Under the pieces are notes generated by a model. That model did no database searches, was not told the DNA's origin, and worked only from the letters and a program-made list of their open reading frames with translations. 51,398 nucleotides of DNA from Brevundimonas sp. AAP58 (GTDB lineage Bacteria; Pseudomonadota; Alphaproteobacteria; Caulobacterales; Caulobacteraceae): NCBI RefSeq assembly GCF_001295975.1, contig NZ_LJHU01000015.1:1-51398 (forward strand). Reading direction: 5' to 3'. Shown in pieces: positions 16,294 to 38,628 of the stretch; position 1 is the first letter of the stretch; the number at the start of each line of letters is the position of its first letter. The position numbers and the translations under genes are program-made.

Positions 16294-16423
16294 TCCGCTC
16301 ATCCCCGCGAAAGCGGGGACCCAGTGCTTTGGCCGATGGACGTTCATTGGAGCGGACAATGGCGATCCCATTCGCCGTGCCTCGCTTAAGGACTGGGTCC
16401 CCGCTTTCGCGGGGATGAGCGGA
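16294..16423. repeat. Short palindrome-ended element between rpsP and rimM
   Basis: The outer ends (16294-16325 and 16392-16423) are perfect 32-bp inverted repeats. Each contains the hairpin CCCCGC-GAAA-GCGGGG followed by ACCCAG facing inward. The 66-bp middle carries no gene. It shares GCTTTGG, CGATG, CCGTGCC and AAGG with the copy at 25660. The element begins 14 bp after the rpsP stop and ends 7 bp before the rimM start; its last bases supply GCGGAG, the likely rimM ribosome site. As RNA the two ends could form one long stem. Confidence 0.9.
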
Positions 16424-25659: not shown

Positions 25660-25790
25660 TCCGCTCATCCCGGCGAAAGCCGGGACCCAGCGCTTTGGGC
25701 GATGATCAGCGGGCGTGGAGTCGAGGCATCCAATCGACCCTCCGTGCCCCACAAAAGGACTGGGTCCCGGCTTTCGCCGGGATGAGCGGA
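25660..25790. repeat. Short palindrome-ended element after the hydroxyacid dehydrogenase gene
   Basis: Ends 25660-25690 and 25760-25790 are perfect 31-bp inverted repeats. Each holds the hairpin CCCGGC-GAAA-GCCGGG followed by ACCCAG facing inward. The 69-bp middle has no gene and resembles that of the 16294 copy at both of its edges. Relative to that copy the stem has C-to-G and G-to-C changes on opposite strands, so pairing is kept. It starts 15 bp after a stop codon. Confidence 0.9.
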
Positions 25791-33185: not shown

Positions 33186-34220
33186 ATGAAGCGCCTCGCC
33201 CTCGCCGCCTCGATTCTCGTCCTGTCCGGGGTCGCTGCCGTCGGCACCTCAACCCCCGCCGATGCCTGGGGCGCGACCGGGCACCGGCTGATCGGCGTGG
33301 CCGCCATGCGCGCCCTGACCGACGAGCTGCCGGCCTTCCTGCGCGAGCCCGGCGCCATCGCCGAGATCGGCGAGCTGTCGCGCGAACCGGATCGCACCAA
33401 GGGCGCCGGGCAACCCCACGACCGCGAGCGCGACACCGCCCACTTCGTCGACCTGACCGACGACGGCCGGGTCATGACGGCGGCGGGTCCGACGCTGGCC
33501 GAACTGCCGGAGCTGAAGAGCGAATACGACGCCCTGCTGCTGGCGGCCGACATCAAGGTCAACGATGCGGGCTATCTGCCCTACGCCATCATGGACGGAT
33601 ATCAGCAGCTGGCGCGCGACTTCGCCCTCTGGCGCGTGCTGAACGCCGCCGAGGCGCGCGAGACCGATCCGGCGAAACGCGCCTGGTATCGCGAGGACCG
33701 GTTGCGGCGCGAAGCCCTGATCCTCAGGGACATCGGCTATCTGTCCCATTTCGTCGGCGACGGCTCCCAGCCGCACCACCTGTCGATCCACTACAACGGC
33801 TGGGACCGGAACACGCCCAACCCCGAGGGCTTCACCACCTCGCGCCAGACGCACAGCAGCTTCGAAGGGGCCTTCACCCGTCGCACCGCGCGGCTGGATA
33901 TCGTGGAGGCCGCCATGCCGGCGCCAGCGCTGGAGGGCTTCGAGATGCGGGCGCGCGTCGCGACCTATCTGACGGCGGGGCTGGGGCAGGTCATCCCCTT
34001 CTATCGGCTGGAGAAGGCAGGCGGCTTCGTCGACGCCGATCCGCGCGGGGCCGAGTTCGTCACCGTGCGTCTGGCGGCGGGCGCGGCCGAGCTGCGCGAC
34101 CTGATCACCCTGGCCTGGCGTGATGCCGGAACCCAGGCCGTGGGCTGGCCCGCCGTGCGCGTCGCCGAGGTCGAGGCCGGGACTGCCGATGCCTGGGGCG
34201 CGATGGTGGGAACGGACTGA
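33186..34220 (+). CDS. S1/P1-type zinc nuclease (exported)
   Basis: This 344-residue protein has a signal peptide that ends ADA, so the mature protein begins with Trp28. WGATGHR puts His33 five residues after Trp28, as Trp1 and His6 in P1 nuclease. The central HFVGDGSQPHH fits the H-x3-D-x5-H zinc ligands, and LTDDGRVM and PDRTK lie where other ligands occur. A later H-x3-D appears here as HSSFE, so one zinc ligand may be Glu for Asp. The family includes single-strand nucleases and phospholipase C. It may salvage nucleotides or phosphate outside the cell. The stop is 7 bp before the TTG of the next gene. Confidence 0.85.
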   Translation: MKRLALAASILVLSGVAAVGTSTPADAWGATGHRLIGVAAMRALTDELPAFLREPGAIAEIGELSREPDRTKGAGQPHDRERDTAHFVDLTDDGRVMTAAGPTLAELPELKSEYDALLLAADIKVNDAGYLPYAIMDGYQQLARDFALWRVLNAAEARETDPAKRAWYREDRLRREALILRDIGYLSHFVGDGSQPHHLSIHYNGWDRNTPNPEGFTTSRQTHSSFEGAFTRRTARLDIVEAAMPAPALEGFEMRARVATYLTAGLGQVIPFYRLEKAGGFVDADPRGAEFVTVRLAAGAAELRDLITLAWRDAGTQAVGWPAVRVAEVEAGTADAWGAMVGTD

Positions 34221-34227
34221 GCCCGCC

Positions 34228-35058
34228 TTGGCCGAGCCCACCCCTTTCCAGCCGACGCCCCCCGTCGTCATCCTCGACAAGCCGCAGCTGGCCGACAACA
34301 TCGGCGCGGTGGCCCGCGTCATGGCCAACTTCGGCCTGGACCGGCTGAGGCTGGTCAGCCCGCGCGACGGCTGGCCCCAGGACCGAGCCTGGGCGGCCGC
34401 GTCAGGTGCCGACTGGGTGCTGGATGGCATCGTTGTGTTCGACACTGTCGCCGACGCCATCGCCGACCTGAACACCGTCTTCGCCACCACCGCCCGCCCG
34501 CGCGAGACGCGCCAGCCGGTGCGGACGCCACGTGAGAGCGCCCGGCTGCTGTATGACGACACGGCGTCGGGCCTGTCGACCGGCCTGCTGTTCGGCGGGG
34601 AACGGGCGGGGCTGGAGACGACGGACATCGCGCTCTGCCAGGGCATCACAACCATCCCGATCGACCCACGCCATCATTCGCTGAACCTGGCCCAGGCCGT
34701 GGCGATCAACGCCTATGAGTGGCGCACGATGGTGCTGGACGCCCCGCCGCCGAACTTCCGCGAAGGCGAACCGCCGGCCGAGGCGCGGCTGATCGAAGGC
34801 ATGATGGGGCATCTGGAGAACGAACTGGAGGAGGGCGGCTTCTTCTATCCGCCCGAGAAGAAGCCCTCGATGATGCAGAACCTGCGCGTCATGCTGGGCC
34901 GCGCGGCCTTTTCCGAGCAGGAGGTGGCGACGTTCCGGGGCGTGATCCACGCCCTGTCCAAGGGCCGGGGGCGGCGGCTGGAGAAGCTGGCGAGAGAACA
35001 CTCAACGTCTTTCCGGGGCCGCGAAGCGGAACCCGGAACCCAGGCTGGCGGGGATTGA
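34228..35058 (+). CDS. TrmJ-like SPOUT RNA methyltransferase
   Basis: This 276-residue SPOUT (trefoil-knot) enzyme methylates 2'-O ribose in RNA; the best fit is TrmJ, which acts on tRNA position 32. It has DNIGAVARVMANFGLDRLRLV near the N-terminus (here 21 residues, so split as DNIGAVAR and MANFGLDRL), FGGERAGLE in the middle and LNLAQAVAINAYEW, the AdoMet-binding knot. The start is TTG 34228. The last 17 residues (from 35008) are encoded by the left end of the palindromic element at 35011: the codons for FRGREAEPGTQ are repeat sequence. The enzymatic core ends about 20 residues earlier, so activity need not be affected. Confidence 0.88.
   Translation: MAEPTPFQPTPPVVILDKPQLADNIGAVARVMANFGLDRLRLVSPRDGWPQDRAWAAASGADWVLDGIVVFDTVADAIADLNTVFATTARPRETRQPVRTPRESARLLYDDTASGLSTGLLFGGERAGLETTDIALCQGITTIPIDPRHHSLNLAQAVAINAYEWRTMVLDAPPPNFREGEPPAEARLIEGMMGHLENELEEGGFFYPPEKKPSMMQNLRVMLGRAAFSEQEVATFRGVIHALSKGRGRRLEKLAREHSTSFRGREAEPGTQAGGD
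35011..35044 (+). repeat. Left 34-bp end of the GIY-YIG element
   Basis: The hairpin TTCCGGG/CCCGGAA (35011-35017 with 35032-35038), with inner CCGC-GAA-GCGG, is followed by ACCCAGG (35038-35044). It is the perfect reverse complement of 35386-35419. It is translated as part of the TrmJ-like C-terminus. Confidence 0.9.
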
Positions 35059-35061
35059 GCG

Positions 35062-35364
35062 GTGGTCGCCGCCGATGCACTGATCGCCGTCTACATGATG
35101 GCCCGTCAGCGCAACGGCACGATCTATACGGGCGTGACGAGCGCTCTCGTCACCCGGGTCTGGCAGCACAAGACCGGCGTGACGAAAGGCTTCGTCCAGG
35201 AGTACGGCTGCAAGACCCTGGTCTGGTACGAGCAGCACGAGTCCATGATCGAGGCGATCATTCGCGAGAAGCAGATCAAGAAGTGGCGACGGGCGTGGAA
35301 GATCGCCCTGATCGAGGCCCGGAACGAGTCGTGGAACGATCTGGCTCGGCATTGGTACGACTGA
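35062..35364 (+). CDS. GIY-YIG endonuclease-domain protein
   Basis: This 100-residue protein is a stand-alone GIY-YIG nuclease domain of the YhbQ/UPF0213-like group. The first strand pair reads GTIYTGVTSALVTRVWQHK, with the Tyr of YTG and the Arg of the next helix as catalytic candidates. The C-terminal half has YEQHESMIEAIIREKQIKKW, where the Glu of REKQ is the likely metal ligand. Such domains nick or cut DNA. The start is probably GTG 35062; ATG 35095 is possible but would cut the first strand. The gene lies inside a palindrome-ended element, so it may act on the hairpin ends. It is not a homing endonuclease in an intron: it sits between two genes. Confidence 0.9.
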   Translation: MVAADALIAVYMMARQRNGTIYTGVTSALVTRVWQHKTGVTKGFVQEYGCKTLVWYEQHESMIEAIIREKQIKKWRRAWKIALIEARNESWNDLARHWYD

Positions 35365-35385
35365 AGGGTGCGCCAGTGGAAACAC

Positions 35386-35419
35386 CCTGGGTTCCGGGTT
35401 CCGCTTCGCGGCCCCGGAA
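35386..35419 (-). repeat. Right 34-bp end of the GIY-YIG element
   Basis: This is the exact inverted copy of 35011-35044, with the same nested hairpin and with ACCCAGG on the minus strand facing the gene. It ends 6 bp before the sirtuin stop codon. Confidence 0.9.
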
Positions 35420-35425
35420 GGACGG

Positions 35426-37979: not shown

Positions 37980-38237
37980 ATGGGACAGCTTCTGATCCGT
38001 CAGGTTGACGACGCCGACATCCTCGCGCTCAAGGCCCAGGCGGAGCGGGCGAACATCTCGCTGGAACAGCGCCTGCGCAATCTGGTGTCCGAAGCTGCCG
38101 GACGTGAGCGGGACGCGTTCTGGGAGCTCGCCCGCATCAGCCGAGAGTTGACCGGCGGGCAGACGATGGACGTGGAATCGGTGCTGCGCGAAAGCCGTCG
38201 GGAGTTGCTGGACCGTGACCCCCTCAGCCGTCGTTGA
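37980..38237 (+). CDS. FitA-like antitoxin of a VapBC/FitAB-type module
   Basis: This 85-residue protein has a short ribbon-helix-helix type N-terminus (LLIRQVDDADILALKAQA) followed by a helix that likely wraps the toxin (RERDAFWELARISREL). FitA-type antitoxins bind promoter DNA with the RHH part and block the PIN nuclease with the tail. Its stop overlaps the toxin start by 23 bases, which is the usual layout. Autoregulation is expected, but I could not assign a clear operator upstream. Confidence 0.85.
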   Translation: MGQLLIRQVDDADILALKAQAERANISLEQRLRNLVSEAAGRERDAFWELARISRELTGGQTMDVESVLRESRRELLDRDPLSRR

Positions 38238-38628
38238 CAGCAGCATCGTGCTGAGATGGTTCGTTCGCGATCCATGGTCAGACGCCGCCATCGCCGCCGC
38301 CGACCGCTACCGTCTGATCGCGCCGGCCTTTCTGAAGGTCGAGATCGCCAACGCCCTCAGGAGCCAGGTCCGGTTCAACAGCATGGCGCTGGATATGGCC
38401 CTGCGTCATCTTGAAGGTCTCCGTTCCACGGTCTCGCTTTTTGATGACGATCCGCTTCTCCCTGCCGCCCTTCGCCTGGCCGCCGATCGGGATCACGCGA
38501 TCTATGACTGCGTCTACATCGCCCTGGCGATGAGAGAGGCCGTTCCTTTGGTGACAGCGGACATGAAGCTGTTCCGCAAGTTCGCCGATGTGCCGGCGTT
38601 GCAGATCCTGACGCCAGAGACGCTCTGA
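38215..38628 (+). CDS. PIN-domain ribonuclease toxin (VapC/FitB-like)
   Basis: This 137-residue PIN nuclease has the four acidic residues of the active site: Asp in VVDSSIVLRWF, Glu in KVEIANAL, Asp in YDCVYIALAM and Asp in TADMKLFRKF. PIN toxins of this type cut tRNA or rRNA loops. The GTG start at 38215 lies inside the antitoxin gene. A second, weaker start is possible a few codons on, since the PIN fold begins right at the N-terminus. Confidence 0.92.
   Translation: MTPSAVVDSSIVLRWFVRDPWSDAAIAAADRYRLIAPAFLKVEIANALRSQVRFNSMALDMALRHLEGLRSTVSLFDDDPLLPAALRLAADRDHAIYDCVYIALAMREAVPLVTADMKLFRKFADVPALQILTPETL

Follow-up and report, generated by a model that had tools for sequence, protein, structure and literature searches.

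The window analyzed here is a stretch of 51,398 nt from Brevundimonas sp. AAP58 (contig NZ_LJHU01000015.1). It contains a unit of two inverted CGTC-tagged REPs with one GIY-YIG nuclease gene between them (35006..35424). The left REP (35006..35044, plus strand) consists of a CGTC tag, a nested hairpin and an inward ACCCAGG tail. The right REP (35386..35424, minus strand) is an inverted copy, and its CGTC tag occupies 35421-35424. An initial sequence-only reading had described a 409-bp unit, whose two ends match perfectly as inverted copies over 34 bp and each form a nested hairpin followed by an inward ACCCAG. Both points hold: 35011-35044 is identical to the reverse complement of 35386-35419 in 34/34 bases, and the nested hairpin with its inward ACCCAG is found at each end. 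The outward CGTC tags (CGTCTTTCC on the left, CGTCCTTCC on the right) come in addition to this claim. Because they are added to the repeat arms, the unit is taken to be 419 bp long. The inverted arms reach 42 nt at 95% identity (35006-35047 and 35383-35424). The nuclease gene (35062..35364, plus strand) has a GTG start and codes for a protein of 100 aa. The upstream gene is a trmJ-like SpoU-methylase frame (34120..35058, plus strand; PF00588). The final residues of this frame are encoded by the left repeat, which falls within its 3' end. Further downstream in the window, two adjacent plus-strand ORFs (37980-38628) resemble, by eye, a VapB/VapC (PIN-domain) toxin-antitoxin pair.

When folded alone, each end of the unit forms a nested hairpin (-11.9 and -11.4 kcal/mol), with a stem of 7 bp (outer) and 4 bp (inner). 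By itself, this hairpin is only moderately unusual, because 6/200 and 9/200 shuffles fold as well as the respective end. With its CGTC, hairpin and ACCCAGG, the repeat fits the plan of CGTC-tagged REPs, which have an unpaired tag, a hairpin and a short CCA-like tail. The sequence-only reading had named full-length copies at other loci, empty sites or ends always paired with the gene as signs of mobility, and had held that ends found only here would speak against an element. The repeat has three close copies in the genome. The third one (one mismatch in 28) is on contig C43, where it is half of a gene-less inverted pair. The gene-bearing unit occurs in one copy, and no second full-length copy of the 409-bp unit was found in this genome.

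As had been proposed, the lone gene between the ends codes for a stand-alone GIY-YIG nuclease; PF01541 (4e-13) is the sole domain found. In 54 aligned relatives, Y22, R32, H36, E69 and N88 are invariant and Y11 is nearly so. Tyr, Tyr, Arg, His, Glu and Asn are what we take to be the conserved catalytic residues of GIY-YIG enzymes. The predicted structure has a mean pLDDT of 88.6. Among solved structures, it comes closest to a UPF0213 protein, the UvrC N-terminal domain and Slx1, all with E-values of 0.001 or more. The closest relative that carries an organism name is from Brevundimonas (73%), and relatives are currently annotated merely as GIY-YIG nuclease or putative endonuclease. NCBIfam gave no match for 5 members, and Rfam gave none. 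The PADLOC and PHROG libraries gave no sign of an anti-phage defense or phage gene (0 families matched, with 14 members tested in each).

The genome holds five divergent GIY-YIG paralogs with five differing repeats. Inverted repeats bracket four of the five, while the remaining one is found just behind a head-to-head repeat pair. The REPs have a CGTC tag at the window gene and a CGTC or GCTC tag at the paralogs, and their CCA-like tails face inward. At six loci (L014, 1396-1776; L068, L091, L092, L096 and L100), the 3' end of the GIY-YIG frame overlaps a REP, which thereby encodes the last residues of the protein. In genome G045, two related GIY-YIG genes are found in tandem, about 1.1 kb apart (L044, 330-671 and 1456-1797).

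The association between gene and repeats was assessed with a sequence-blind rule. Among inverted repeats whose two arms flank the gene at a distance of no more than 250 bp, it takes the one that scores best; arms may enter the gene by up to 90 bp, and a score of at least 18 is required. Control genes were called at the same loci by a simple ORF rule (90 aa or more), leaving out those closer than 900 bp to the GIY-YIG gene or 250 bp to a locus edge. At 60 congeneric loci, which are not independent of each other as they come from one genus, the GIY-YIG gene is bracketed in 41/60 cases versus 0/509 control genes. When one-side-only repeat pairs are added, the values are 56/60 and 58/509. These loci are successive matches by E-value, with one swap (G097 for a G045 match that overlaps L044). 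One locus was also taken from each of 40 alphaproteobacterial families (one strong match each, from about 50 families, picked blind to the flanks), and here 17/40 GIY-YIG genes are bracketed versus 0/168 control genes. By eye, most of the unbracketed family-level loci keep a single or degraded REP; at L143 and L163, no REP was seen by eye in the stretches viewed.

The association extends to several phyla. At 80 named loci (the best 80 of at least 573 matches), 50/80 GIY-YIG genes are bracketed versus 7/276 control genes; this count includes L271, where a run of N was scored as a REP pair, and three of the seven control-gene matches sit in L214, where REPs cluster. The bracketed records include Methylomonas, Rhodanobacter, Thiomicrorhabdus, a delta-proteobacterial record, Nitrospirae, Planctomycetes, Omnitrophus and Moraniibacteriota; as many of the records are metagenome-assembled, individual host assignments may be incorrect. 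In a phylum-wide search, counted at GIY-YIG loci only, 22/30 loci are bracketed. Distant GIY-YIG genes are unlike the clade described here: among weak matches outside the clade in 30 genomes, 0/30 are bracketed by inverted repeats. According to the sequence-only reading, the idea of an element fails if the gene is found without the ends at orthologous places in many genera; most of the relatives examined have adjoining REPs.

A second count addressed the tag itself. A CGTC- or GCTC-tagged hairpin is found within 250 bp of the GIY-YIG gene at 50/60 genus, 29/40 family and 77/80 named loci, compared to 30/509, 10/168 and 32/276 control genes, respectively, and to 3/30 distant GIY-YIG genes. At 11/40 family-level loci, the detector finds no tagged hairpin. 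A first version of this detector (any match at 27/60, 19/40 and 43/80 loci and at 4/30 distant GIY-YIG genes) was replaced because the stem it required was too long. Detection of repeats by a fixed CGTCAT[CT]C tag alone (36/60 versus 56/509) was dropped in favor of the sequence-blind rule, because many flanking repeats bear another tag. At L121 and L242, the GIY-YIG genes adjoin a different palindrome of the AATTGCGAAACAGGCTGTTTCGCAATT type, which is devoid of a CGTC tag.

These counts bear on the idea that the nuclease gene is a passenger. The REPs would then be moved by something else, or would mark old insertion hot spots, and the gene would be carried by recombination between flanking REPs, on which it would not act. 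The tagged hairpins near ordinary genes (30/509 controls) are in line with this. The bracketing results speak against it, given that no control gene at the genus or family level and no GIY-YIG gene outside the clade is bracketed.

A further argument comes from the repeat class, which follows the nuclease clade. Within the genus, one nuclease clade is found with CTTGA-loop repeats and another one with CTTGT-type loops. A further clade has mostly GCTC-tagged repeats with GCGNNNGC cores, and the largest cluster has long or nested repeats. Repeat similarity correlates with protein similarity (rho 0.43 over 3321 non-orthologous pairs), with 0.09 as the highest value in 500 permutations; 85/95 loci have an arm and were used, and the 10 without an arm were dropped. 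For 46 genes that have a paralog in the same genome, the repeat was compared to that of the paralog and to that of the closest relative, which is in another genome and at a different place. It is nearer to that of the closest relative in 43 cases and less near in 3. One would not expect a passenger gene to be accompanied by its clade's repeat class at non-orthologous places in 43/46 comparisons. In genome G026, the 29 GCTC copies among the matches listed represent two variants (16 and 13, counted by hand), and both are found at its two GCTC-class nuclease genes. The sequence-only reading had likened the unit to the plan of a REP-flanked RAYT, with a different enzyme class. This view gains support from the specific, co-varying pair of nuclease and repeat in many genomes.

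The copy number of the repeats is linked to the nuclease as well. Median copy numbers of the GCTC repeat are 18 in the 46 genus genomes that code for the cognate nuclease clade (defined by E below 1e-33), 5 in the 41 genomes with other GIY-YIG genes only, and 1.5 in the 14 with none (cognate-clade genomes versus the rest: p 7e-9). A reversed-pattern control gave zero in each genome. Eight or more copies are found in 39/46 genomes with the clade versus 19/55 without it. Among 289 genomes of the class, a strong GIY-YIG match is present in 43/56 REP-rich genomes (at least 10 copies of a single REP pattern) versus 49/233 others. The survey pattern misses some REP classes, as the genome under study has none of it, yet has 56 GCTC repeats. 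REPs persist or spread without a detected enzyme, because 13/56 REP-rich genomes lack a strong match and the 19/55 clade-less genomes still hold GCTC repeats. The nuclease-free, REP-rich genomes count in favor of the passenger idea.

The link in copy number also bears on a housekeeping role, in which the protein would remove or process REP hairpins and cruciforms in replication or repair, without spreading them. Such a role is suggested by the nearest solved folds, although their E-values are weak, and by the gene being mostly resident (see below). The UvrC N-terminal domain and Slx1 act on DNA structures. However, the presence of the nuclease goes with higher, not lower, numbers of cognate REPs, and 14/101 genus genomes do without any GIY-YIG match. 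Also, the five divergent paralogs with their five repeats in one genome look like separate selfish families, and less like a single function in repair. We thus regard a housekeeping role as very improbable.

Gene-less pairs are also found in the window. Two head-to-head pairs of GCTC-class REPs (16297..16420 and 25663..25787), each of about 125 bp, are devoid of a gene; the class of the former occurs at another GIY-YIG gene of the genome (L015). A direct repeat of 3-9 nt was found at the ends of 0/50 distinct head-to-head pairs. Without a target-site duplication, there is no classical transposition footprint such as a DDE-type transposon or MITE would leave beside its terminal inverted repeats. 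Outside both ends of the head-to-head pairs (L016-L104, L175-L204), the sequence is pyrimidine-rich when read towards the tag, which is a symmetric flank rather than a target duplication. Beyond these flanks, no common target sequence was seen at the pairs.

The site 3' of trmJ, where the window unit resides, was compared in 30 genus genomes over 330 nt. Depending on the species, three states are seen there: no insertion, a REP pair without a gene, or the gene together with REPs. Empty sites, named as a sign of mobility, do occur. The gene with REPs is found at L175 (the window), L177, L182, L193, L195 and L202. Gene-less REP pairs are found at L178, L197, L204 (CTTGA-type) and L183 (GCTC-type), and L180 has one REP with a degraded partner. 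In 19/30 genomes, the detector finds no REP in the 330 nt, but one of these (L199) has, by eye, a GCTC-tagged hairpin with a 6-bp stem. In twelve of the 19 genomes, trmJ overlaps the next gene, which we take to be YnfA-like. Another inverted repeat family, of the CCTCCCCC type, occupies the site directly past trmJ at L187 and L188. The closest relative by TrmJ (G071, 96%) has neither a GIY-YIG match nor a GCTC repeat.

A related gene is found 3' of trmJ in eight other genus genomes (G002, G026, G035, G038, G054, G055, G062 and G079). In G062, the nuclease gene of this unit has stops, and the inner stem of the left hairpin shows compensating changes (CCGC/GCGG to CGGC/GCCG). The nuclease gene looks mostly resident, because there is no second full-length copy of the unit and related genes are found at trmJ in these eight genomes. 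The sequence-only reading had suggested a self-contained element. A 409-bp unit that moves by itself is not supported, for the same two reasons. RAYT genes are likewise mostly resident and low-copy, with multi-copy gene-less REP pairs.

The trmJ site provides the remaining points in favor of a passenger gene: gene-less and gene-bearing insertions both occupy it, and it received REPs of different classes. On balance, we consider a passenger gene unlikely, if not negligibly so. The site also brings in a homing-type nuclease, which would cut a REP-free or different target. The REP-flanked unit would then be copied in by double-strand-break repair, and the REPs would be its borders, not the substrate. 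GIY-YIG homing nucleases are known, and homing would be compatible both with the lack of target-site duplications and with the finding that eight other genomes have related genes at this trmJ site. On the other hand, gene-less REP pairs are many, with 56 GCTC repeats in this genome; no shared target sequence was seen beyond the pyrimidine-rich flanks; and the repeat class tracks the protein clade, which points to the REP as the thing that is recognized. Homing to another target is thus improbable.

We therefore prefer the reading that the stand-alone GIY-YIG protein is the dedicated partner nuclease of CGTC-tagged REPs, which we consider likely (probability about 0.7). A REP-class-specific nuclease is the simplest common cause for three observations: the calculated association, the match between clades and repeat classes, and the link to copy number. 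The protein is predicted to recognize REPs of its own class in hairpin or cruciform form, and would cut the REP near the tag. Host repair or replication would then copy REP pairs, and occasionally the gene between them, to new sites. It is the gene-less pairs, not the gene unit, that appear to multiply, given that the gene has few copies and that related species often carry it at a common location. By analogy, we infer that recognition may be structure-specific and that movement may be completed by host repair. Likeness to the job of RAYTs, with a different chemistry, suggests that the cuts would be hydrolytic and without a covalent intermediate. GIY-YIG enzymes cut hydrolytically and form no such intermediate. 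The absence of target duplications agrees with hydrolytic cutting that is completed by host repair or replication.

CGTC-tagged REPs are a known superfamily that was said to “apparently lack a dedicated transposase” (Di Nocera 2013, PMC3733652). According to the accessible part of that paper, they have a hairpin with an AT-starting stem of 8-9 bp, a loop of 4-5 and a CCA-like tail, and are found in alphaproteobacteria foremost. Tyrosine transposases and other transposase gene classes were examined there, and no enzyme partner was found; the text has 0 occurrences of GIY-YIG. What moves these REPs is left open in that text, and a specific enzyme partner would be an answer. The repeats described here share the CGTC tag, the CCA-like tail and the head-to-head pairs with that superfamily. 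They differ from its consensus, as far as given in PMC3733652, by the GCTC tag of one class and by the nested stem of the window repeat, which does not have the 8-9 bp stem with AT start and the loop of 4-5. Some of the paralog-associated classes, e.g. CGTCATCCTCGGGCTTGACCCGAGGATC, fit the consensus stem better than the window repeat does. In a literature search with a coverage of few subscription papers and no preprints, no publication among those listed ties GIY-YIG genes to REPs, so such a link may have been described elsewhere.

The closest parallel is the REP/RAYT system (TnpA-REP, REPtron, REPIN). In both cases, a small enzyme gene is flanked by inverted tagged hairpin repeats that are its own, gene-less head-to-head pairs are found elsewhere in the genome, and enzyme clade and repeat class co-vary. 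RAYTs are described, in the accessible parts of the sources, as HUH tyrosine transposases with mostly GTAG-tagged REPs (PMC8266576, PMC3733652), which process cognate REPs in single-stranded form and evolved together with these repeats (PMC8266576). Unlike RAYTs, the enzyme here is a GIY-YIG nuclease, found with CGTC- or GCTC-tagged REPs. Neither an HUH domain nor a catalytic tyrosine of the IS200/IS605 type was detected in the window protein, and the GTAG tag is absent from the REPs at the window gene and its paralogs, which rules out that the gene is itself a RAYT.

The protein shares fold and domain family with UPF0213, the UvrC N-terminal domain and Slx1, although the sequence matches to domains of these types are weak (best 6e-6). 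Mobile DNA that uses such a nuclease is known from GIY-YIG homing nucleases and from Penelope-type elements with a GIY-YIG domain. Those are paired with introns or a reverse transcriptase, whereas here the domain stands alone between DNA hairpins. If the preferred reading is correct, proteins named just GIY-YIG nuclease or putative endonuclease gain a function. The numerous combinations of a nuclease clade with its repeat class would offer a ready-made collection from which to learn how a DNA hairpin is read by a protein of some 100 residues. Also, the plan of a REP with a dedicated enzyme would have arisen at least twice, with unrelated enzymes. It is tempting to go one step further, and to see here a separate kind of bacterial mobile DNA that is independent of RAYT/HUH and extends from alphaproteobacteria to candidate phyla. 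Its hairpin-ended elements would have a stand-alone GIY-YIG nuclease as their sole enzyme, which cuts its own REP class, and host repair would spread dozens to hundreds of gene-less pairs per genome. We hold this wider view tentatively, at slightly less than even odds. The pairing itself is like that of REPs and their dedicated enzyme, with an unrelated enzyme in its place, and cutting and spreading, if demonstrated, would justify a class of its own beside the REP/RAYT system.
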